64,000 bases of DNA, taken from NCBI GenBank assembly GCA_025363455.1, contig JANYDW010000081.1:1-64000 (forward strand), read 5' to 3'. Positions within the stretch are counted from its first letter, which is position 1; every line of letters starts with the position of its first letter. A model generated the notes under the pieces. The model was not told the origin of the DNA. It searched no databases and saw only the letters and a list, made by a program, of their open reading frames with translations. Both the position numbers and the translations under genes were made by a program. This DNA is from Oleiharenicola sp. (GTDB lineage: Bacteria; Verrucomicrobiota; Verrucomicrobiia; Opitutales; Opitutaceae). Of this stretch, positions 1,331 to 37,688 are shown piece by piece.

Positions 1331-2209
1331 TTACGCAATGATGTGACGTTCAATGGCTCCCACTGCGTCGGTCTGGGCGTCTTCCAAAAGATAGTGACCT
1401 GCCGCAGCCAGATAGTCGGCGTCGGCATTCGGCAGCAGTCCCTTCCAGCGCTCGAAATAATGCCGGTTGAAACAAAAATCCTGCCCACCCCAAATAATCC
1501 GGACAGGTCGTTCGCGCAGCAGAGGCAATGCGGTTTCGATCTTGGCCAGCGCGATGTCATTGGGTGCCCCTAGCCCTTTGGGGATGTCCCGCACGAACCG
1601 GTGCGTGGCGATACGGTTAGCCCAGGAATCATAGGGAAACAGGAATCCACGCTTAACCGCGTCCGGCAGCGGTTTGGTCACCGCCATCCAGGTGGCCGGC
1701 CAGGCAAACCCGTTAAAGCCGCGCACGGCCAGTTCCCCGATCACCGGGACTCGGCAGAACCGAATCCGCCACGGAATCACCGTGTCGGCAAAGGCCGCGG
1801 TATTGAGGATGACAACCTTCCCGAGCTTCTCGTGGCGCGGCAGCATCGTCCCCAGCCCGATCGGACCGCCCCAGTCGTGCACGATCAGATGAATCTTCCG
1901 CAGGTTCAATGAATCGATCAGGCGGCCCAGGTTCTCGACGTGGTTGCCGAGTGTATAGTCAAAGTCCTGCGGTTTGTCGGACAACCCGCAGCCCAGATGG
2001 TCCGGGACGATACACCGGATGCGGCCGCGCAACGCCAGCACGACGTTGCGGTAGAAAAACGACCACGTGGGGTTCCCGTGGACCATGAGCACGGCCTCGT
2101 CGCCCACGCCCTCATCCAGGTAGCTCATCTCACCTGCCCCGGTGGCGAAACGTTTCGGTTCGAATGGATACAGCTCACGCAGCCAAGGAGGTAAGTTCAC
2201 CGAATTCAT
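1331..2209 (-). CDS. oleB: OleB-type alpha/beta hydrolase (beta-lactone decarboxylase)
   Basis: The 292-residue product has the haloalkane-dehalogenase fold. It shows HGNPTW at 44-49 (oxyanion/Asn motif), the nucleophile Asp112 in HDWGG, and the catalytic His272 in AAGHYLLED. OleB proteins of this family remove CO2 from beta-lactones in head-to-head hydrocarbon synthesis, and the oleA immediately upstream supports that role. The ATG at 2209 is preferred because a purine-rich GGGAGGGAGAG precedes it. The longer open frame to 2281 only reads through a palindromic repeat. It is the last gene of the lipid operon, ending 25 bp from the dif-like site. A general dehalogenase or epoxide-hydrolase function remains possible. 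Confidence 0.8.
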   Translation of the reverse strand: MNSVNLPPWLRELYPFEPKRFATGAGEMSYLDEGVGDEAVLMVHGNPTWSFFYRNVVLALRGRIRCIVPDHLGCGLSDKPQDFDYTLGNHVENLGRLIDSLNLRKIHLIVHDWGGPIGLGTMLPRHEKLGKVVILNTAAFADTVIPWRIRFCRVPVIGELAVRGFNGFAWPATWMAVTKPLPDAVKRGFLFPYDSWANRIATHRFVRDIPKGLGAPNDIALAKIETALPLLRERPVRIIWGGQDFCFNRHYFERWKGLLPNADADYLAAAGHYLLEDAQTDAVGAIERHIIA

Positions 2210-2228
2210 GACACTACTCTCCCTCCCT

Positions 2229-2308
2229 TCATCCTGAGTACAGCGAAGGATCCAAGCCGTAACGACGATTTGTCCGACCACTTGGATCCTTCGCTACGCT
2301 CAGGATGA
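2229..2308. repeat. Palindromic repeat between oleA and oleB
   Basis: Two arms of 28 bp (2229-2256 and 2281-2308) are inverted copies that begin TCATCCTGAG and contain CGAAGGATCC. A short spacer separates them. The element fills the oleA-oleB gap and could form a strong hairpin that tunes expression of oleB. Only one copy was seen in this window. Confidence 0.8.
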
Positions 2309-2339
2309 CGGAATGGGGAAATTTCTTTGGTCATCGATG

Positions 2340-3377
2340 TCACCATTCGATGGCCAGCATGAGGCTGTTCAACCCGCTGCCGATGCCCAGCAGCGCCACC
2401 TTCTGGCCGGTGCGCAACTCACCCTGCTCGCCCGCGACGGCCAGCGTGGCTGGCAAGGCCGCCGAGCCCGTGTTGCCGAGCCAGTCCACTGTGGCGAAAT
2501 CCTTGGCCGGATCCAGGGCCAGCGTCTCGTAGAGCTTGCGGCGGTGCGCGGTGCCCACCTGGTGCGTGATCACGCGGTCCGGCGTGGACGTGTTCCAGCC
2601 ACTCTCCGCCGTAAACTTCGCCCAAGTTGCCTTCGCCACGTCCATGCCGGCGATGAGCAAAAGCTCGGAATCGGTCTCCATGACCAAAGAGTCGCCTGCA
2701 CTGTCACCCTGGCAGAGTTCACTGTGCCTGGTCTCCGCGTGGACGCTGCCACCAAGGAGCCGATGCTTCGGTGCCCCGGCCGGCAGCAGATCCTCATGGC
2801 ACACCACCGCGGCCACCGCGGCCGAGCCAATGGTGAGATTGGCAAAGAACGGCTTGATGCCATTCCGGTCCAGCGGCGCCTGCAACAGGTGCTGGATGGT
2901 CTGCTCCACCAGCGGTCGCCCGTTCTCGCCCGAGACAACCATCCCGCACTTGATCTGTCCCGAGTCGATCATCGCGGCCAAGGTCACCAGCCCGTTCAGG
3001 AAGCCCAGGCAGGCGTTGGAGAGGTCGAAAATCTGGCAGTTGGGCCCCAGTCCAATCTTGTGATGCGCGAATGACGCCGTCGCGGGTTCAAGCATGTCGC
3101 GACACACCGCCGAATGAATCAGAACCTCTATCTGGCCCGGTTTGAAGACGGAGCGCGCCAGCACGTTCTTCCCCGCCGCGGCACTGGCATCCGACGGTTT
3201 GGTTCCCGCCGGCCACATGCGACGCTCGCGAATACCCGTCATCAGTTCCAGGCGGCCTGCGGGCAGCTTGAGCCGGTCATACAGCGGCTTCAGTCGCTCC
3301 TCGATCGCTGCCGAGGTCCATTTCTCGTCCGGCAACGCTGTGGCGATCGACTCGATGCAGGCGCGGGAGAATTTCAT
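2340..3377 (-). CDS. oleA: OleA-type thiolase (acyl-CoA/ACP head-to-head condensation)
   Basis: The 345-residue product is a FabH-like thiolase with the triad Cys123 (SNACLGF), His272 (THQVG) and Asn302 (GNTGSA). Glu97 in RDMLEPATAS matches the general base that sets OleA apart from FabH, and the C-terminal ALLGIGSGLN motif is typical of OleA. OleA condenses two long acyl thioesters to a beta-keto acid, the first step to long-chain olefins or ketones. Unlike known oleABCD loci, the gene here follows FabI- and FabZ-like genes and an ACP. The acyl donors may therefore be made by the same operon, which is an inference. Confidence 0.88.
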   Translation of the reverse strand: MKFSRACIESIATALPDEKWTSAAIEERLKPLYDRLKLPAGRLELMTGIRERRMWPAGTKPSDASAAAGKNVLARSVFKPGQIEVLIHSAVCRDMLEPATASFAHHKIGLGPNCQIFDLSNACLGFLNGLVTLAAMIDSGQIKCGMVVSGENGRPLVEQTIQHLLQAPLDRNGIKPFFANLTIGSAAVAAVVCHEDLLPAGAPKHRLLGGSVHAETRHSELCQGDSAGDSLVMETDSELLLIAGMDVAKATWAKFTAESGWNTSTPDRVITHQVGTAHRRKLYETLALDPAKDFATVDWLGNTGSAALPATLAVAGEQGELRTGQKVALLGIGSGLNSLMLAIEW

Positions 3378-3406
3378 CTGGTGAGTTTGGATTGGCCGGG
3401 GAACTT

Positions 3407-3460
3407 GTGGGAGCGAGCTTGCTCGCGACTGGTTCGTATCGCGAGCAAGCTCGCTCCCAC
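3407..3460. repeat. REP-like palindrome between the FabI-like gene and oleA
   Basis: Inverted arms of 22 bp (3407-3428 and 3439-3460) begin GTGGGAGCGAGCTTGCTCGC, with a 10-bp spacer. Each arm is itself a small hairpin (GCGAGCTTGCTCGC), as in paired REP elements. The element fills the gap between the two genes. Confidence 0.8.
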
Positions 3461-3471
3461 GGGAGAAACAG

Positions 3472-4293
3472 TCACGGTTTGGGCACTTCTGGTCGCATGG
3501 CCAGCCGGATGATTTCCTTGTCGAAATAATTGCTGCCCAGGCCGGCGTCCACCACCAGCGAGGTGCCGTTCAGGCCGCTGCTGCGCTCGCTAAGCAGAAA
3601 CGCCGCGACATTGGCCACTTCCTGCGTATCGAGGTTGCGTTTCCGGAAGGTCAGCTTCTCGGCGTAAAGGTAGCTTTCGAGGTAGCCCGGGATGCCGGCC
3701 GAGGCACTGGTCTTGAGCGGGCCCGAGCCGAGCACGTTGAACCTCACCTCGCTGCCGGCGCTGAAGGATTTGGCCAGGAAACGCGCGCACGACTCAAGCG
3801 CAGCTTTGATTGGTCCCATATAGCCGTAGTTGTCCGGTGTCACCAGCAACGACGAGATGCCAATCGTGACCACCGAGGCATTCTTCGCGAGGTGCGGCTT
3901 GAAGGCTTGCGCCAGTTCCACGAGGGAAAACGCCGAGATTGACGTCGCCTGCAGGAAATCCTTTCGCTTGGTCTCGGCGAAGGTCTTGAAGCCTTCGCTG
4001 TAGTTCGCAAATGCCACCGAATGCACGAGGCCATGCAGCGGCGCGAAACCGGCCTGCCCCACCTCGGCCGCCAGTCGCTCGCACGCGCCCTCCTCCTCAA
4101 CGTCACAGATATAAACCGACTTGCCGGCCAGCTGGCTCTCGAGGGTTTTCTTCCGCGCCTCGGACCGGACGGCATAGACGACGCGTGCGCCCTGCTCCTC
4201 CAGCGTTCGCGCGATGAACCACGCGACGCTCTTCTTGTTCGCTACGCCCTGCACGAGGAAGGTTTTGCCGGAGAAGTTGAGGAAATCACTCAT
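3472..4293 (-). CDS. FabI-like enoyl-ACP reductase
   Basis: The 273-residue short-chain dehydrogenase has the FabI cofactor signature GVANKKSVAW at 16-25 and Tyr156/Lys163 (YGYMGPIK) at the same numbering as E. coli FabI. It would reduce enoyl-ACP with NAD(P)H in chain elongation. One oddity is that the other FabI tyrosine, Tyr146 in E. coli, is Ile here. The enzyme is therefore divergent and may be specialised for this operon rather than being the housekeeping FabI. The ATG at 4293 overlaps the stop of the dehydratase gene (ATGA). The extra N-terminal frame up to 4572 is an overlap artefact. Confidence 0.82.
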   Translation of the reverse strand: MSDFLNFSGKTFLVQGVANKKSVAWFIARTLEEQGARVVYAVRSEARKKTLESQLAGKSVYICDVEEEGACERLAAEVGQAGFAPLHGLVHSVAFANYSEGFKTFAETKRKDFLQATSISAFSLVELAQAFKPHLAKNASVVTIGISSLLVTPDNYGYMGPIKAALESCARFLAKSFSAGSEVRFNVLGSGPLKTSASAGIPGYLESYLYAEKLTFRKRNLDTQEVANVAAFLLSERSSGLNGTSLVVDAGLGSNYFDKEIIRLAMRPEVPKP

Positions 4294-4739
4294 GGGGTTG
4301 TGACCTGTCCTTCCGGTGTTTTCCAGGCGACGGCGAACTCCACGGTCAACACACGCTTGTCGCCGCTTTTGATCGAGCCGCTCATCATATGGAACCCGCT
4401 CAGCGTCTCCTTGCGCTTCACCTCGATGAGCGTGGTCTCCCCGGGATAGACGGGGTTGCGGAAGCGCACGTCGCCGATCTTGGCTAGTAGCGGTACCCCG
4501 CCCTGCCCTCCGCCCGCCGCGGTCATGATTCTGGCCATCAGCAGCGCCCCCGTCTGGAAGACCGATTCGCACAGCAGTACGCCGGGCGTGATCGGCGCCC
4601 CCGGATAGTGCCCTTTGTAGAAATCCTCCTCGGCGCGCCAGGTGCGGCGGGCCGTGAGGGTCTCGCCTTCGTGGGAGACGATTTCGTCCACGAAGAGAAA
4701 GGGCGGACGGTGAGGGATAAGTTTTTCGACTTCGGTCAT
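4290..4739 (-). CDS. FabZ-like 3-hydroxyacyl-ACP dehydratase
   Basis: The 149-residue hot-dog protein opens with IPHRPPFLFVDEI, the FabZ N-terminal signature. Its active-site helix has His44 in HYPGAPITPGV and Glu58 in LCES. It would dehydrate 3-hydroxyacyl-ACP to enoyl-ACP. An in-frame ATG at 4751 is an alternative start; neither start has a clear ribosome binding site. The stop overlaps the FabI-like start. The pair gives the operon its own dehydration and reduction steps, while no ketoreductase (FabG) is seen nearby. Confidence 0.85.
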   Translation of the reverse strand: MTEVEKLIPHRPPFLFVDEIVSHEGETLTARRTWRAEEDFYKGHYPGAPITPGVLLCESVFQTGALLMARIMTAAGGGQGGVPLLAKIGDVRFRNPVYPGETTLIEVKRKETLSGFHMMSGSIKSGDKRVLTVEFAVAWKTPEGQVTTP

Positions 4740-4842
4740 GAGCAGATGCAAAAGGCAGTTTGCCCGCGAATTGACGCGAATTTGCCGAATGGTGGGTTCG
4801 CCCTGCTTTGTGGGGTTCGGCTATTTGCGTACATTGGCGTGA

Positions 4843-6303
4843 TTAGCGGGTGGTTTCCGCCGGTTCGGTAGTGGCACGCTTGCGGGCGGTGATGAACTTG
4901 TCGACTTGGTTGGCGACAATCACGCCATAATTGATGGTGCCGAGCCAGCCGGACATGATGATGCCGACGGAACCGGCGTGGTAGAGTCCGGGCAGCTGGT
5001 TGGGCAGATCCATCGAGACCTTCAGGCCCTCGAACTTCGTGCCGAACGACGTTCCGTTCCAGTGCTTGGTATAGTGCTCGATCGTCCGCGGGGTAGCGGC
5101 CTCCATCCAGTCGATCTTGGCCCGTACCCCGGGAATGTGTTTTTCCAGCGAAGCAATGGATTCGTCGATCAGACGCTGCTTCTCGATGGCATACTGCTCG
5201 TCGCTGAGCGCCTGCCACTCGTCGTAGCGGGCATTGATCGACACCACCACGGTGTACCGGTCCGTGCCTGGCCGGGTGTCGGGATAATACATCGAGAACG
5301 TCCGGCTCGTGGTGTGCAGGTCGACCAGCTTGTCACTCGAGAATGTCGGTTCATCGGACGTAAACACCAGGTCGCCGATGTGCGGCAGGGTCTCCCCTTT
5401 CCGGATGCCGAGATAAACCTGGCAAGAGCTGCTGTTGACCCGCACGGCCTTGGTCTGGGCGACAAACTCCGGCGTGAAGTTCTCCTCGCCGCCGAGCCGC
5501 AGCACCGTGTTCTTGATGTTGGAATTGGACAGGACGGCATCGCAGCGGATGGTCTTCCCGTTGGCCACGACGCCCACGACCTGCTTCCGTCCGTCGCGCT
5601 CCGCGGTCAGAACGCGCTCGACCAGCACATGCTTTCGCAGTTCGACGCCGTTCTTCTTCATTTCTCCGGCCATTTTCTTCACCAGCACGTCCGTGCCGCC
5701 CCGGAAGGTGTACACGCCCTTGCTCATGAAGTTGGAGAATACGATACCGAACGTGATCGCCGGATCGTCCAGCGTGGAGCCGTTCGCATAGGCGATGGGT
5801 TCCATCAGCAGGCGCTGCACGTCGTCCCGCCCCGGGAAATACCGCTCAAACATCTGTCCGGTGGTCTCCGGGTTGTTGTCGTAGAAATTCATCGCCCGCA
5901 GGTCGGTGAAAAACCGCTCGACCGCTTCCGCTGCCACGTTGAATTTTTCGACCAGCAGGCGCGTGAAGTCCTCCCGGTCGAAGGTGGTGTCGATTGAGAA
6001 TTGCGGATTGATGAACCGCACGCCCTTCAGCTGCACAATCGAATCGGCGATGTCCTGGCTCCAGTATTTGCGCACCGACTTGATCATGCCAATCGGGAAG
6101 CCGTGCAGCGAAATGTCGAAGATGTGGCCACCCTTGCGCGTGAACCACGTGGCCAGTCCGCCCAGCTGGTAGTGGTGCTCCAGCAGCAGGACCTTGTGCC
6201 CGCACTTCGCGAGCACATTGGCACCGGTCAAGCCGCCGAGTCCGCTGCCGATGACCACCACGTCGTAGTGATCATCGATGTCTTTGAGCCAATCGTAAGC
6301 CAT
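4843..6303 (-). CDS. CrtI-like FAD-dependent oxidoreductase, copy 2
   Basis: The 486-residue product belongs to the phytoene desaturase / retinol saturase-type family. The Rossmann motif [14 protein letters not shown] is at 16-28, a second ADP-binding region holds [16 protein letters not shown], and the C-terminal FAD motif is around [14 protein letters not shown]. These enzymes introduce, reduce or isomerise double bonds in long hydrophobic chains. Placed between ACP, FabZ-, FabI- and OleA-type genes with no carotenoid genes in view, it probably acts on an acyl chain, possibly while ACP-bound. That substrate is inferred. ATG at 6303 is chosen because [14 protein letters not shown] directly precedes the first beta strand. 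Confidence 0.8.
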
Positions 6304-6344
6304 GAAAGGCCCACATGTGAGTGAGCCCCCGGGCAAAGCGCAAC

Positions 6345-7208
6345 TCAGAGTTTGAGTCCGCGCAGGTACTTCAGGCTGTCCGGAATGCAGACGAGCGGTG
6401 TCGGGGTTTCGTCCTCGAGGAAATAATACTTCACGCCGATGTCCTGCGCGGTCTTCAGCACGGCCGGCCAGTCGATCTGCCCGACGCCGACCGCGACATT
6501 GTCGATGGGGGCGGCGCTTCCGGTGGACAGGCCCGTGACGGCGCCCTTCCGCATATCCTTCACGTGCAGGAAGGACCAACGGGTCGGATGCTGTTTGAGC
6601 AGCTTGACCGGATCCTGCCCGGCATGAACCACCCAGAAAACATCCATCTCGAGGGTCAGATTCTCCTGCTTGGTTTCCGCGACGATGATATCAAATGCGG
6701 TCTTGCCGCCCTCGCTCGGGAACGGGACAAACTCGAAGCCATGAGTGTGCCAGCCGTAGGAAATACCTTCGGCGCGGAATGCCGCGCCCCACTTGTTGAA
6801 ATTGGCGGCCACGACGTGGGCCTGCTCGGCGCTCAAGCCTTCCTTGGGGTGCGGAATCCAGGCGGTGACGACAAATTTTGCGCCGAGCGCCTTGGCGGTC
6901 TGAATCGCGCCGGGCAGATCCTTCTCCAGCACCTCGTAACCGATATGGGCGCTGATGGCCTTGAGCCCACGCGCCTGGAGGAGCTTTGAGAAGTCCGCCG
7001 CCGACAGGTTGCCCGTGCCGGCGGTCTCCACCTCCGTGATTCCCTGTGCCTTGACCCAATCGAGCGCGCCGGGCAGGTCGGTCTTGACCTGGGCACGCAT
7101 GCTCCAGAGCTGCAGGCCGACGTGCTCATGGTAATCGACGCCCGCCAACAACGGCAGGGTCAGCAGGGCGGAAACAAGGGCGATAACGGGATAACGGGAT
7201 GTTTTCAT
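6345..7208 (-). CDS. Secreted TIM-barrel sugar isomerase-like protein
   Basis: The 287-residue product has an N-terminal signal peptide ([16 protein letters not shown]) followed by an AP-endonuclease-2 / xylose-isomerase-like barrel. Barrel markers include [27 protein letters not shown] and FLHVKDM, with the expected metal-binding His, Glu and Asp positions. Such proteins are common in Verrucomicrobia as exported sugar isomerases or epimerases. It sits in the middle of the lipid operon, between two FAD oxidoreductase genes, on the same strand and with small gaps. Whether it shares the pathway or is a passenger is unclear. Confidence 0.75.
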
Positions 7209-7227
7209 GGGGGTAGAAGATAAATTG

Positions 7228-8652
7228 TCACGTCCCGCTCTTTTGCAAGATGTGATAATTGGCCATTGAGATGCCGCTCAGCATGGCACCGATGATGCCG
7301 AGGAATCCTTGGTCGGTGCCGCAGAGGTAGAGGTTGCTGAGGTGCGTGCGGCCATCGCGCACTTTTCGCGGGGCACCGTAGATCGCGCCATTCAGGTGGC
7401 CGGTAAATTTCCGGATCGTCCGCGGCGTGAACATGTCTGTCGTAACGAGATTCTCCGCCAGCACCGCATCGGTCACCGGCGGCAGGAACCGCCGGGCGCT
7501 GCGCTGCATTTCTCCCAGCCAACGGGCCTTTTCGGCCTGGTAGCCGGGCTCGGGCAAGGCCGCCCACTTGGCGTAGTTGGCCAGGCAGGTGACCCGGAAC
7601 AGTCCCTCGGGCAACTGGCCCCCCGCGTATTCGAAATTATTCGGGAAACAGATAACCCCACTCCTCGGGTCCACGAGTTCCTGCGCCCGGGAATAGTCGA
7701 ACAGTTCCGAGTCGTTGAAGAAGATGATCGTGTCCTCCCTCCAGCCCCACGTAGCGGGCGGTTGACGGTAAACGGAGATGGTTTCGACGAAGGAGAGCGC
7801 GCCCGTGTTGGCCTCTGCCTCGGCTTCATGCCCGGGCGAGCAGAGTCGCAACGTCTCAGGGTAGCCGACTGAAGAAATCACGTGATCGGCAGTGATTTCG
7901 GTGCCGTCGTCCAGCTTAAGCACCGCTGCCCTGCCCTGTTCCTCGATGATGCCGGCCACGCCGCACTTCATGCGTCGCTCGCCGCCGGCCTGACGGAATT
8001 TCTCCAGCAGTACACGGATGATCACGCGCACGCCGTCAAGTGGCCGCGCGAATCCTTCCAGATAGAGCGCCTTGAACATGATGACGAACTGACCAAACTC
8101 CATGTCCCGCTCCTGCGCGCTGCCGTAATACATCACGGGACAGAACAGCATGTCGGTCAGTAGCGGATCGGTGAGATGCCTGGCCACGACCTCGCGGGCC
8201 GAAGCCGGCTTGGCGTCGAGTGAGACATCGTCGTAGGTGCGGACCAGTTGGACGAGCATGCGCCAGCCATCGGCCTGGGCGGGAAATCGCGTCGTGACCT
8301 CGGCATCGAGCACGGCGAAGTCGTTAGTGAACTTCAGGTCGCAGTCGCGGAAGGCGACCCGCGAGCGCTTTTGCGGGCACAGGGCGAATTCCTCACGGTC
8401 GATCCGCAACTGGCGCAGCAGCTTGCCCAGGGGCGTGCCCTTGACGCCCGGCGGCACATAGTTGGTCATCGCGTGCAGGCCGACGTCGTATTTGCGCCCG
8501 GCGAGGCTGTAGAAGCTGTTCAGGCCGCCTGGGGCGTTGTGGCGTTCAAAGATGCAGACCTTCTTGCCGAAGTGCGCGAGTCGGATGCCGGCAGCGAGTC
8601 CGGACATGCCGGCCCCGATAATCGCGGCGTCATAGTGGGAGTCTTTCATCAA
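7228..8652 (-). CDS. CrtI-like FAD-dependent oxidoreductase, copy 1
   Basis: The 474-residue product has the FAD-binding motif IIGAGMSGLAAG at 11-22, an ERHNAPGGLNSFY segment and the C-terminal LYLCGTDQGFLGIIGAM motif of the phytoene desaturase superfamily. It is clearly related to the second copy at 4843-6303 but divergent, so the two probably act on different positions or steps. It lies 19 bp downstream of nothing but its own operon partner's gap, with the secreted isomerase following it. A role as a desaturase or double-bond isomerase on an acyl chain is an inference from context. Confidence 0.8.
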   Translation of the reverse strand: MMKDSHYDAAIIGAGMSGLAAGIRLAHFGKKVCIFERHNAPGGLNSFYSLAGRKYDVGLHAMTNYVPPGVKGTPLGKLLRQLRIDREEFALCPQKRSRVAFRDCDLKFTNDFAVLDAEVTTRFPAQADGWRMLVQLVRTYDDVSLDAKPASAREVVARHLTDPLLTDMLFCPVMYYGSAQERDMEFGQFVIMFKALYLEGFARPLDGVRVIIRVLLEKFRQAGGERRMKCGVAGIIEEQGRAAVLKLDDGTEITADHVISSVGYPETLRLCSPGHEAEAEANTGALSFVETISVYRQPPATWGWREDTIIFFNDSELFDYSRAQELVDPRSGVICFPNNFEYAGGQLPEGLFRVTCLANYAKWAALPEPGYQAEKARWLGEMQRSARRFLPPVTDAVLAENLVTTDMFTPRTIRKFTGHLNGAIYGAPRKVRDGRTHLSNLYLCGTDQGFLGIIGAMLSGISMANYHILQKSGT

Positions 8653-8661
8653 CGGTTCTGT

Positions 8662-8748
8662 TGTAGGGCGGGATCGCCGAATCCCGCCATAAAAAAGGCG
8701 GGATCATCAGCCTTCGCCGAGCCTACGGCCGACGAGGCGATCCCGCCT
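8662..8748. repeat. GTAG-type palindrome in the lipid operon
   Basis: The left arm GTAGGGCGGGATCGCC and the right arm GGCGATCCCGCC are inverted copies flanking a GC-rich centre with GCCTACGGC. The element fills the gap between the ACP gene and the first oxidoreductase gene. Related GCCTTCGC...GCCTACGGC text is also seen near 13070-13100. Confidence 0.75.
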
Positions 8749-8771
8749 AAAGCATAATATGCAAACCGACC

Positions 8772-9026
8772 TCAGGCCTTGGTCTGGAATTTCGGGGTCA
8801 GGTAGTCGGCGCAACTATCCAGGGAGGCGAGTTGGGTGTAGTCGGCCTCGGGCACCTCGATACCGTGGCGCTTGCGCAATTCCATGACGATATCGAGGAA
8901 ATCCATCGAATCGAGCTGCAGCTGGTCGCGCAGGCGCACCTCAGGCTTCACGGTCGTGAGATCCTCATCGGGCGCGATGTCGGAAATGATGTCGATAACC
9001 AGCTTGCGGCATTCGTCTTTCGTCAT
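8772..9026 (-). CDS. Acyl carrier protein
   Basis: The 84-residue acidic protein has the phosphopantetheine attachment motif LDSMDFLDI with Ser40, the usual length for a stand-alone ACP. The ATG at 9026 lies 16 bp after the stop of the KAS gene; a longer frame to 9095 would overlap that gene and adds nothing ACP-like. Next to its own ketosynthase it is probably a dedicated carrier for this operon rather than the housekeeping AcpP. The C-terminal half (EVPEADYTQLASLDSCADYL) matches the ACP helix III region. Confidence 0.9.
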   Translation of the reverse strand: MTKDECRKLVIDIISDIAPDEDLTTVKPEVRLRDQLQLDSMDFLDIVMELRKRHGIEVPEADYTQLASLDSCADYLTPKFQTKA

Positions 9027-9042
9027 GGTGGTAAAATGTGGG

Positions 9043-10281
9043 TCAGGAGCGGAATCGCTTGATGATGAGAGTAGAGTTAATTCCCAGCATTCCAAACGAA
9101 TTATTCAGGATGGCGTCCACCCGGCTAACGGCGCGGGGATGGTTGATGACAAGGCCGGGGATATCGCACTGGGGATCAAGTTCATCCACATTTATCGTGG
9201 GGTGGACGATGAGGTCGTCAAAGCTGGGGATGTTACCGGCCAACTCGAGCGCTCCAGCCGCACCCATCGCGTGGCCAATGAAACTCTTGGTGTTGTTGAT
9301 GGCGGCAGCCTCCTTTCGCTTGCTGAAAACCGCGCGAATGGCCTCGCATTCCTGGATGTCGCCTTGCGGGGTCGAGGTGGCGTGGGTGTTAACGATATCG
9401 ATGTCATCCACGGTCATGCCGGCGTTGACGAGGGCTTTTTCGACGCACTGGGCCTGACGCTCGGGATTGGGCAACACGTAGTCCGTGGCGTCCGAGTTGA
9501 CACAGTAGCCGGCGATCTCGCCATAGATCTTTGCGCCGCGGGCCTGGGCATCCTCCAGCCGCTCGATCGTATAGATGCAACCGCCTTCGGAGATGACGAT
9601 CCCGTTGCGGGCCTTGTCGAACGGTCGGCTGGCTTTGGTCGGGTCGACGTGGCTGGCTAGCGCGTTCTGACTCTTGAACCCGGCGAAGATGCCGAAGGTT
9701 TGCGGGCTTTCGCTAACGCCGCCGGCGATGGCCAGGTCGACCTCCCCGAGTCGGAGCATCTGCGCGGCGTGGATCAGGCCCATATTGCCCGCAGCGCAAG
9801 CGGCGCCAATCGTATAGGCGGGCCCGGTGCTGCCGAGGTTGAGCGACACCTCGCCCGCCGGACTGTTGGCCACGGTCCGGGGGTTGTGGTGGTGCGTCCA
9901 GAACTTCGTATCGTAGTTGAATTTCGAAATATTGTAGACCTCGTTCTCCGTCTCAACGTTGCCGTGCTCGGTAATGCCGAGATAAACCCCGATGCGGCTC
10001 TTGTCGCGGCTTTCGAGGGCGATACCGGAATCCGCCAGCGCCTCCCGGGCGCAGTAAATGCTGATGCTGCCCGCCCGCGTGCCGATCCGGACGTCCTTTT
10101 TCTTCTGGTGCTTGAGCGGATCGAACTTGCAGAGGCCGGCGGGCCATTGGCCCATGTAGCGGACTTCAGTCATGGTGATGCCCGACACTCCCGATAACAG
10201 GTTGCGTCGGAATTCCATCAGGCTGTTGCCGTTGGGCGCCGTCAGACCAATACCGGTAATTACAATGCGGGTTTGCTTCAT
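9043..10281 (-). CDS. Beta-ketoacyl-ACP synthase (FabF/KAS II type)
   Basis: The 412-residue product carries the KAS triad Cys162 (GAACAAGN), His300 (NTHATSTPQGD) and His337 (KSFIGHAMGAAG). It would elongate acyl-ACP with malonyl-ACP. It is the first gene of the lipid operon, divergent from galE with 62 bp between the starts, where the operon promoter must lie. The sequence is close to the FabF type and not to the chain-length-factor type, because the Cys is present. Being paired with its own ACP indicates a dedicated elongation system. Confidence 0.9.
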   Translation of the reverse strand: MKQTRIVITGIGLTAPNGNSLMEFRRNLLSGVSGITMTEVRYMGQWPAGLCKFDPLKHQKKKDVRIGTRAGSISIYCAREALADSGIALESRDKSRIGVYLGITEHGNVETENEVYNISKFNYDTKFWTHHHNPRTVANSPAGEVSLNLGSTGPAYTIGAACAAGNMGLIHAAQMLRLGEVDLAIAGGVSESPQTFGIFAGFKSQNALASHVDPTKASRPFDKARNGIVISEGGCIYTIERLEDAQARGAKIYGEIAGYCVNSDATDYVLPNPERQAQCVEKALVNAGMTVDDIDIVNTHATSTPQGDIQECEAIRAVFSKRKEAAAINNTKSFIGHAMGAAGALELAGNIPSFDDLIVHPTINVDELDPQCDIPGLVINHPRAVSRVDAILNNSFGMLGINSTLIIKRFRS

Positions 10282-35949: not shown

Positions 35950-36020
35950 CAAAATCCTGACGCGCAGCCTACGGCTTGAGGTTGCAGTCCAGCGCTTTAC
36001 CCTCAGCTTGGGCCTTTCCC

Positions 36021-37688
36021 ATGCGCATCGGACTGGCCCAGATCAACACCATCGTCGGCGATCTCACCGGCAACTGCCGCCTCATCGAGGAGGCTTACCG
36101 GACCTTGGTCGCACAGGGCGCCGAGCTGGTCGTCTTTCCCGAGCTGGTCGTCAGCGGCTACCCCCCGCGCGATCTGCTCTTCAAGAAACGTTTCGTGGGC
36201 GATGTCGAGCAGGCCACGCAAACCCTGGCCGCCAAGATCGGGACCGTGCCGGCCGTCATCGGCTACACGGAGTCCAATACCTCAGGGCAGGGCCGCCCGG
36301 CCTTCAACTCCGCCGCCTTCTGCCATCAGGGCAAGATTCTCACTTCAGCCCGCAAGTGCCTCCTGCCGACCTACGACGTCTTTGACGAGGACCGCTACTT
36401 TGAGCCCGCGGCCGCGCCCACCGTGGTCGAGTTTGGCGGAAAGCGCATCGGCATCACCATCTGCGAAGATATCTGGACCCACGCCATGATCTCGACCCGC
36501 CGGCTCTATAACGGAGTCGAACCCGTCCGACAGCTTGCCGCACAACATTGCGACGTCATGGTCAATCTCTCGGCCAGCCCTTGGAACCACGGCAAGGGCG
36601 ACGTCCGCCACACCCTCATTTCCGATACTGCCCGGCAGCTCGGCTGTCCGGTCGCCTACGTCAATGCCATCGGCGGCAACGACGAGCTGCTCTTCGACGG
36701 CCGCTCCCTAGTGGCTGACGCGCGGGGCCGAGTGTTGGGCGGGCTCGCTGCCTTTCGCACTGATATGCGGGTGGTTGATACTGCATTGTCCGGGTCTCAG
36801 CTGTCAGCTCTCAGCTCTCAGTTTCTTCACCCCACTTTTGAACAAGACGACCTCGCCGACATCTACGACGCCCTCTTGCTCGGCGTGCGCGACTACGCCA
36901 ACAAGACCGGCTTCAAGAAAGCCCTGCTCGGTCTCTCGGGCGGTATCGACTCGGCCCTCACCGCTGTTATCGCGGCCGAGGCGCTCGGGCCGAAGAATGT
37001 CATTGGCGTCAGCCTGCCCTCGATCATTTCCAGCCAGCATTCCAGGGACGACGCCGCAGCCGTCGCGAAGAGCCTCGGCATCGAGTTCCACACGCTATCC
37101 ATCGCCGACGTCGTCGCGGCCGGGGAGAAGACGCTCGCGCCGCTCTTTGCGGGACGCCCCCGTGACATCGCCGAGGAGAACATCCAGGCTCGCGCCCGCG
37201 GCCTGCTGCTCATGGCCATCTCCAACAAGTTCGGCGCCCTGCTCCTGACCACCGGCAACAAGAGCGAGCTGGCTGTCGGTTATTGCACGCTGTACGGCGA
37301 CATGTGTGGCGGTCTCGCCGTCATCAGCGACGTGTTCAAGATGCAGGTCTACGCCCTCTCCCGCTGGATCAACCGCGATAAGGAGATCATTCCGGTCAAC
37401 TCCATCGACAAGCCGCCCAGCGCCGAGCTGCGCCCCAACCAGACCGACCAGGACAGCCTGCCGCCCTACGACGTGCTCGACGCCATCCTCAAGGGCTACG
37501 TCGAGGAAGGCCTGTCCCGCGCCGACCTCGTCGCACAGGGCTTCGCGCCGGCCGTGGTCAACGACATCGTCCGCAAGGTCGACCTCAACGAATACAAGCG
37601 CAAGCAAGCCGCCCCCGGCCTGAAGATCACTCCCCTCGCCTTCGGCGTCGGCCGCCGCATCCCGATCGTACAGAAATATGTCAGCTGA
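36021..37688 (+). CDS. nadE: Glutamine-dependent NAD+ synthetase
   Basis: The 555-residue product has an N-terminal nitrilase-type glutaminase domain with the triad Glu41 (FPELVVSGY), Lys112 ([10 protein letters not shown]) and Cys148 (ITICEDIW). The C-terminal synthetase domain has the ATP loop [11 protein letters not shown] near 304-313. It converts deamido-NAD to NAD using glutamine. Between the domains, residues about 257-268 ([12 protein letters not shown]) are encoded by a CAGCTCTCAG repeat that looks like an in-frame insertion in the linker. ATG 36021 directly precedes the first strand MRIGLAQIN. Confidence 0.94.
36795..36825 (+). repeat. CAGCTCTCAG repeat in frame inside nadE
   Basis: Tandem units of CAGCTSTCAG (CTCAGCTGTCAGCTCTCAGC, then TCTCAG) encode SQLSALSSQ in the linker between the glutaminase and synthetase domains. 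A related stretch encodes PQLAALSSQLQS in the DTW protein at 53517-53550. Confidence 0.6.

Follow-up and report, generated by a model that had tools for sequence, protein, structure and literature searches.

The window analyzed here is a stretch of 64,000 nucleotides (positions 1 to 64,000 of contig JANYDW010000081.1, assembly GCA_025363455.1) from Oleiharenicola sp., a bacterium of the family Opitutaceae, order Opitutales, phylum Verrucomicrobiota. At positions 1331 to 10281, it contains an operon in which a β-ketoacyl-acyl carrier protein synthase (KAS), an acyl carrier protein (ACP), two CrtI-type flavoenzymes (CrtI1 and CrtI2), and FabZ- and FabI-like enzymes are combined with the head-to-head condensing enzyme OleA and with OleB. 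That the operon serves one dedicated pathway, for which it provides an ACP and a KAS, is strongly supported. On balance, its gene content and conservation suggest that it encodes the first half, plus the coupling reaction, of a pathway leading to long, polyunsaturated C31:9-type hydrocarbons, with the CrtI pair acting as isomerases. Herein, the route from a polyunsaturated fatty acid (PUFA) to a hydrocarbon is, taken by itself, quite probable; the isomerase mechanism by itself comes close to an even chance.

Architecture of the operon

The genome of the window consists of 83 contigs and is 94.9% complete. All nine genes are located on the minus strand and follow each other from 10281 to 1331 (whole-stretch positions):

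9043..10281, minus strand: KAS, a FabF-like β-ketoacyl-ACP synthase of 412 residues; Cys162-His300-His337; kind according to Pfam and NCBIfam
8772..9026, minus strand: private ACP of 84 residues; Ser40 in LDSMDF; PP-binding over the Pfam cut-off
7228..8652, minus strand: CrtI1, a CrtI/amine-oxidase-type flavin adenine dinucleotide (FAD) enzyme of 474 residues, proposed double-bond isomerase; PF01593
6345..7208, minus strand: sugar-phosphate-isomerase-like triose-phosphate isomerase (TIM) barrel protein (AP_endonuc_2 in Pfam) of 287 residues with a signal-peptide-like start
4843..6303, minus strand: CrtI2, the second CrtI-type FAD enzyme, 486 residues, proposed double-bond isomerase; PF01593
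4290..4751, minus strand: FabZ-like 3-hydroxyacyl-ACP dehydratase of 153 residues, with a TTG start or an internal ATG; PF07977 over cut-off; His48/Glu62
3472..4293, minus strand: FabI-like enoyl-ACP reductase of 273 residues; PF13561 over cut-off; Tyr156/Tyr158 and Lys163
2340..3377, minus strand: OleA, head-to-head condensing thiolase of 345 residues; NF006720; Cys123, His272, Asn302, and Glu97
1331..2209, minus strand: OleB-like hydrolase of the haloalkane-dehalogenase type, 292 residues, proposed β-lactone decarboxylase; Asp112

The span and common direction of these genes had been proposed in an earlier interpretation made from the letters alone (the sequence-only reading); both agree with the coordinates of the open reading frames (ORFs), and Pfam and NCBIfam agree with the assignments in kind. 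Start positions were amended for ACP (9026), CrtI2 (6303), FabI (4293), and OleB (2209). The Cys-His-His residues of the KAS and the four residues of OleA, which that reading had also named, were all found. The catalytic roles of the residues listed for KAS, ACP, FabZ, FabI, OleA, and OleB are those that we take to hold in their families. OleA reaches 439.5 bits with NF006720, whose curated cut-off is 285, and is identified as OleA by this model; its top solved relatives are 3row, 3s21, and 5vxf, all presumably OleA structures. KAS, FabZ, FabI, ACP, and OleB score below the cut-offs of their best-matching NCBIfam models. CrtI1 and CrtI2 share 22% identity and the family PF01593, and the nearest solved relatives of CrtI2 include 4rep and 4dgk. 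Scans for promoters and terminators gave no more signals than shuffled sequence. Downstream of OleB, at positions 1 to 1330, where the contig begins, both strands carry short ORFs, and the operon has no long continuation.

The remaining Ole genes, overlooked by the sequence-only reading, are located on another contig (C60). OleC scores 623.9 bits there, with a cut-off of 478, and OleD adjoins it. OleD (C60:149327-150492, corresponding to L041:8328-9493) is divided over two reading frames, whose overlap falls on a tandem repeat of 7 bp with three copies of TCTCAGC; the break may reflect a genuine inactivation, variation of the repeat, or a misassembly. The same heptamer occurs as a doublet at L041:9959-9972 within the OleC frame. 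A peptide stretch similar to the one that it encodes is found, in frame, in the window ORF 35976-37688, which we take to be NAD-synthetase-like; at the DNA level, the window lacks an exact copy of the doublet. The heptamer is possibly a dispersed small repeat. Elsewhere in the genome, there are a separate FabF-like gene (on C7) and an additional reductase-type frame (in L002), presumably FabV-like. Hence, the housekeeping functions do not have to fall to the KAS and FabI of the operon.

Conservation within the order and in two further phyla

At 1e-10, the order has CrtI1 relatives in 218 of 273 genomes, including a few weak cross-matches. For 103 genomes of the order, the presence of CrtI1 (at 1e-60), CrtI2 (at 1e-100), and OleA (at 1e-60) was compared. 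Herein, G029 and G075 were scored as lacking CrtI1 because of weak matches, and G018, G020, G039, and G054 as containing it on divergent matches of 1e-69 to 1e-76. CrtI2 and OleA each occur in 82 genomes. All three genes are present in 72 genomes and none in 15, leaving 16 with one or two, several of which are incomplete or fragmented assemblies. The pairwise co-occurrence has Fisher p values of 3e-11 to 5e-9, not corrected for relatedness.

The TIM-barrel gene recurs in only two of the 29 other loci of the order (L042 and L049) and in none of 36 loci elsewhere, and it is judged to be a guest outside the pathway. Of the 12 CrtI1 loci fetched from the window's family, eight (L042-L047, L049, and L050) have the eight core genes together on one strand, and so does L059, from a different family of the order; some of these loci carry extra genes between CrtI1 and CrtI2. 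Of the order's 19 CrtI1 loci, 17 have ACP beside CrtI1. CrtI2 is located outside the fetched stretch in nine of these 19, eight of which (L051-L056, L058, and L060) keep CrtI1 with KAS and ACP. Conversely, three of the ten CrtI2 loci (L123-L125) have CrtI2 elsewhere with FabZ, FabI, OleA, and OleB adjoining. The split parts still co-occur, which argues for one pathway. Elsewhere in the phylum, the CrtI1 orthologue of four loci (L132, L133, L135, and L137) stands beside a protease-type gene, presumably an FtsH-like protease, rather than beside KAS and ACP.

Outside the phylum, a combined CrtI1/CrtI2 profile gives at least two strong matches in 50 of 246 Planctomycetota genomes and in 14 of 198 Thermodesulfobacteriota genomes; matches that are weak only were obtained in a 51st genome of the former phylum (one match) and in nine more of the latter. 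The starts of CrtI-type genes are at most 6 kb apart in 34 genomes of the former phylum and in 12 of the latter. In one order of Thermodesulfobacteriota, a CrtI-type match at 1e-60 is found in 165 of 213 genomes, 157 with two or more and eight with one. The identity of such pairs as one CrtI1 and one CrtI2 was checked in the fetched loci. These were chosen from the profile matches, most having their two CrtI genes near each other; the locus counts therefore show architecture and not frequency.

The fullest clusters belong to Thermodesulfobacteriota. Six of 16 loci (L304, L305, L308, L309, L329, and L334) carry KAS-ACP-CrtI1-CrtI2-FabG-FabZ-FabI-OleA-OleB-OleC-OleD on one strand, with OleB between OleA and OleC in all six, and L303 contains the same eleven genes in a different order. 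CrtI1 follows the ACP gene beside it in all 16 loci, and FabG lies between CrtI2 and FabZ in 14. The KAS of L329 is split over two frames (L329:11797-13013). In L305 and L308, the frame upstream of KAS is presumably alanyl-tRNA-synthetase-like. L330 and L331 show the block KAS-ACP-CrtI1-CrtI2-FabG-FabZ followed by apparently unrelated genes, which we take to be a Tol-Pal operon. In Planctomycetota, ACP lies beside CrtI1 in seven of ten loci, and Ole genes are found near the core in six (L311, L312, L314, L315, L317, and L318); the fetched stretches contain OleC in six cases and OleA and OleB in four each. The single pathway with its own KAS and ACP, which the sequence-only reading had made dependent on joint conservation in relatives, is thus supported in the order and in two further phyla. 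In 16 further genomes searched whole, a CrtI-like match at 1e-10 was obtained in 11, the best at 8.5e-38, and five anammox genomes gave 2e-20 to 1e-22. The plasmid records contained no CrtI2 relative at 1e-20.

Relation to carotenoid and anammox proteins

The CrtI tree comprises every ORF of at least 380 residues that was matched by blastp at 1e-8 in chosen loci; it is a quick tree with midpoint root and with support from the Shimodaira-Hasegawa-like approximate likelihood-ratio test (SH-aLRT) only. Among its 130 proteins, CrtI1 (56 rows) and CrtI2 (46 rows) each form one clade with an SH-aLRT of 100, and 17 CrtI-like proteins of anammox bacteria and related planctomycetes fall outside both. 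In the KAS tree of 70 proteins, from which pieces shorter than 330 residues were left out (L302 at a contig end and L329 in two frames), the 40 cluster KAS including that of the window form one clade (100/100). This clade is set apart from 14 anammox KAS and from 16 other FabF proteins, whose housekeeping status is assumed. The cluster KAS is, hence, a dedicated enzyme. The CrtI1, CrtI2, and KAS clades each span three phyla.

The comparison with ladderane genes is based on 19 loci fetched via an anammox FabZ (L138-L156), 18 of them titled anammox or Planctomycetota and one an uncultured bacterium; they contributed the 17 CrtI-like proteins, and KAS from seven loci, to the trees. As in the operon, FabZ, FabF, and a CrtI-like gene are found side by side in the anammox candidate clusters (Kuste3603-3608 and Kuste3333-3352). 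In contrast, their CrtI-like proteins are only about 25% identical and form a separate clade, and their KAS is different. As far as the available parts of the reports go, these clusters also contain a second, non-canonical FabF and radical S-adenosylmethionine (SAM) genes (PMC4790861, PMC2649909). CrtI1, CrtI2, and KAS of the window are placed outside the anammox clades with a support of 98-100. A special tie to the ladderane clusters, as suggested in the sequence-only reading, was therefore given up; in the sequence comparisons, the resemblance holds only at the level of the superfamily and of gene company. Its idea of a rearranged chain fared no better, as by Pfam and NCBIfam the nine proteins include no radical SAM enzyme and no other cyclizing type.

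Neither CrtI1 nor CrtI2 reaches any NCBIfam carotenoid cut-off listed. With crtI_fam they score 55.6 and 85.9 of 238.1 bits, and with carot_isom, the best-scoring model for both, 67.4 and 97.9 of 586.9 bits, far below the cut-off. Phytoene/squalene synthase (PF00494) has no match in the 94.9% complete genome of the window, and the same search was positive in 7 of 14 control genomes. The other PF01593 matches of the genome are three proteins outside the operon, presumably a HemG-like protein, a DUF1365 neighbor, and a GltD-like protein. The earlier view that the FAD enzymes do not belong to a carotenoid pathway therefore stands as far as the missing PF00494 and the low scores are concerned; the 130 rows of the tree comprise no proven carotenoid enzyme. 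Profile searches place carotenoid desaturases among the nearest solved relatives of the CrtI pair, and fold searches with the structure models return the CrtI/amine-oxidase fold in general. The superfamily of these flavoproteins comprises carotenoid as well as fatty-acid double-bond isomerases.

A proposed route to polyunsaturated hydrocarbons and its alternatives

Two known systems provide the frame for the proposed product; cited statements follow the available parts of the papers. In bacteria with a Pfa synthase, C31:9 is made from two 16:4n-3 chains joined by OleABCD (PMC6463001, PMC4882568), the chain condensed by OleA being a predicted one (PMC6463001). In the Pfa cycle, the trans-2 bond is thought to be either reduced or isomerized to cis-2 or cis-3, with retention of the cis bonds, single steps being not fully confirmed (PMC4882568). 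The second system, and the closest parallel in print, which the sequence-only reading did not mention, is Desulfotalea psychrophila. C31:8 and C31:9 hydrocarbons occur in it although no PUFA pathway is known there (Rattray et al. 2009, PMC2649909). Its CrtI-like genes are DP2405 and DP2406, with consecutive tags, and DP1860 (PMC2649909). It is placed in the order Desulfobulbales of Thermodesulfobacteriota, the phylum of the fullest clusters, which also carries CrtI1/CrtI2 pairs; two CrtI-like genes with consecutive tags recall the operon, and DP2405 and DP2406 may correspond to CrtI2 and CrtI1. The available text on this organism groups the two genes with an anammox-like locus at about DP1853-DP1860 and proposes desaturation as their role; Ole genes are not named (PMC2649909). 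Unlike in that account, the set is resolved here as one cluster with OleABCD and is distinct from the anammox type.

In the proposed route, the private KAS and ACP would grow a chain from acetyl and malonyl units, and FabG and FabZ would create a trans-2 double bond in each cycle. FabG, which is part of the cluster in other phyla, would presumably be supplied from elsewhere in the genome of the window. In every third cycle, FabI would remove the trans-2 bond; in the other two, the CrtI-like flavoenzymes would keep it, one by moving it to cis-3 and the other by converting it to cis-2. Starting from acetyl, the rhythm would be reduction at C4, cis-3 at C6, cis-2 at C8, reduction at C10, cis-3 at C12, cis-2 at C14, and reduction at C16, and its repetition would yield the all-cis, methylene-interrupted 16:4 n-3. 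By this carbon count, a ketosynthase, an ACP, a ketoreductase, a dehydratase, one enoyl reductase, and two isomerase activities are needed, and these are matched by the KAS, ACP, FabG, FabZ, FabI, and two flavoproteins of the cluster. OleA would then join two such chains, and OleD, OleC, and OleB would turn the product into C31:9, the ninth double bond being the one made by OleABCD. Oxygen would be needed in no step. The intermediate and the coupling would be the same as those proposed for Pfa and OleABCD of Shewanella and relatives. However, Pfa is a multidomain type I system in which isomerization is attributed to the dehydratase domains, whereas here single-domain enzymes and CrtI-like flavoproteins would be at work. 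From this match we infer the product, the isomerase roles, and the division of the steps between CrtI1 and CrtI2. An unusual, probably polyunsaturated chain that is subsequently joined head to head, as the sequence-only reading had envisaged, is thereby supported as a reading.

The chief rival assumes the same product and a different chemistry, with CrtI1 and CrtI2 as true desaturases acting on acyl-ACP. It has a real though clearly minor share of the probability. The carotenoid desaturases among the nearest solved relatives agree with it, and it was proposed in print for D. psychrophila by Rattray et al. 2009, where isotope data were read as pointing to monounsaturated acids as the origin of the hydrocarbon (PMC2649909, available parts). 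Desaturation alone, however, does not call for a private FabZ and FabI, and the best NCBIfam model for both flavoenzymes is a carotenoid isomerase, which at such scores gives a weak hint only.

Rather improbable is another unusual acyl chain, such as a conjugated polyene or a cyclic or ladderane-like one, that is joined by OleA or placed into membrane lipids while OleA and OleB serve another acyl pool. The shared gene company of the anammox clusters and the absence of CrtI2 from nearly half of the fetched CrtI1 loci of the order are in line with such a chain. It is opposed by the placement of the anammox CrtI-like and KAS proteins outside the cluster clades, by the absence of radical SAM enzymes and methyltransferases among the nine proteins, and by the presence of CrtI1 and CrtI2, which tracks OleA over the 103 genomes whether the genes are dispersed or not.

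There is very little room for a function of CrtI1 and CrtI2 after OleABCD, on the finished alkene of an ordinary chain: enzymes of the CrtI family presumably act on free polyene hydrocarbons as a rule, yet CrtI1 follows the ACP gene throughout the Thermodesulfobacteriota loci and stays with KAS and ACP in nearly all split loci of the order. Slightly more remote still is the possibility that the chain is supplied by a pfa-like type I synthase encoded elsewhere in the genome, the CrtI cluster having another role. Pfa-like clusters were suggested as a source of olefin precursors in Deltaproteobacteria and Planctomycetes (Shulse and Allen, PMC3098273, available parts). Among the 40 genomes with a CrtI pair, including that of the window, none has a PfaA match over the TIGR02813 cut-off; 11 show sub-cut-off matches of 1e-61 to 1e-110, mostly to large polyketide-synthase-like frames. 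The other 29 have weaker matches only, the best in the window's genome reaching 95 bits in a frame of 426 residues, and the Ole genes stand with the CrtI cluster. Carotenoid desaturases lying by chance in a lipid operon, for which membership of the CrtI family at the level of PF01593 would speak, are largely refuted by the missing PF00494, by scores far below every carotenoid cut-off listed, and by a CrtI pair that travels with KAS and ACP across three phyla.

Several points weigh against the isomerase route to C31:9 itself. Sequence, profile searches, and fold do not separate an isomerase from a desaturase or reductase, and the structure models of the CrtI pair are weak (mean predicted local distance difference test scores of 60.6 and 58.4). 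The C31:9-type product of the window's organism is a prediction from its genes, and D. psychrophila is linked to the cluster through consecutive locus tags and its phylum. All C31:9 producers known to one review also make eicosapentaenoic or docosahexaenoic acid (PMC4882568, available parts), and in the 11 genomes with sub-cut-off PfaA matches, a pfa-like source is possible. FabG reaches the threshold in none of the 29 loci of the window's order and in just two of the ten Planctomycetota loci. Eight of ten loci from elsewhere in the phylum have CrtI1 without KAS or ACP. One genome of the order (G065, 99% complete) has the CrtI pair as well as OleC and OleD but gives no OleA match at 1e-60, and the window's own genome has its OleD divided between two reading frames.

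Olefins are also said to have been reported from Verrucomicrobia and Planctomycetes, by Sukovich et al. in 2010. Ole genes of Opitutae and other bacteria of the Planctomycetes-Verrucomicrobia-Chlamydiae (PVC) group, which are also reported from Deltaproteobacteria and Planctomycetes, were interpreted as serving carbon storage in one account (PMC5673642) and hydrocarbon production in another (PMC10176705). Both accounts concern the same bacterial group as the operon, and their available text does not mention linked KAS, ACP, and CrtI genes. For D. psychrophila, a non-Pfa PUFA route has already been published in outline (PMC2649909). Apart from Rattray 2009, the cluster is not described in the titles and abstract openings of the literature found, most subscription journals being outside the coverage. 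None of these titles and openings presents the resolved cluster with OleABCD, its spread over three phyla, its distinctness from anammox, or the two-isomerase scheme.

For D. psychrophila, whose route to C31:9-type hydrocarbons was left open in 2009 and is not answered in the titles and abstract openings mentioned, the cluster offers a complete and testable candidate gene set. It is widespread in three phyla and is now distinguished from the ladderane genes of anammox bacteria, with which it had been grouped. Tentatively, it may represent a hitherto unrecognized class of PUFA synthase, namely a fully dissociated, oxygen-independent type II fatty acid synthase in which two CrtI flavoenzymes replace the isomerizing dehydratase domains of Pfa and which supplies OleABCD in three phyla or more. 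If flavoenzymes indeed set the cis bonds on ACP-bound chains, this would be new chemistry for oxygen-free PUFA formation, and it would provide small single-domain parts for the engineering of PUFA or hydrocarbon synthesis.

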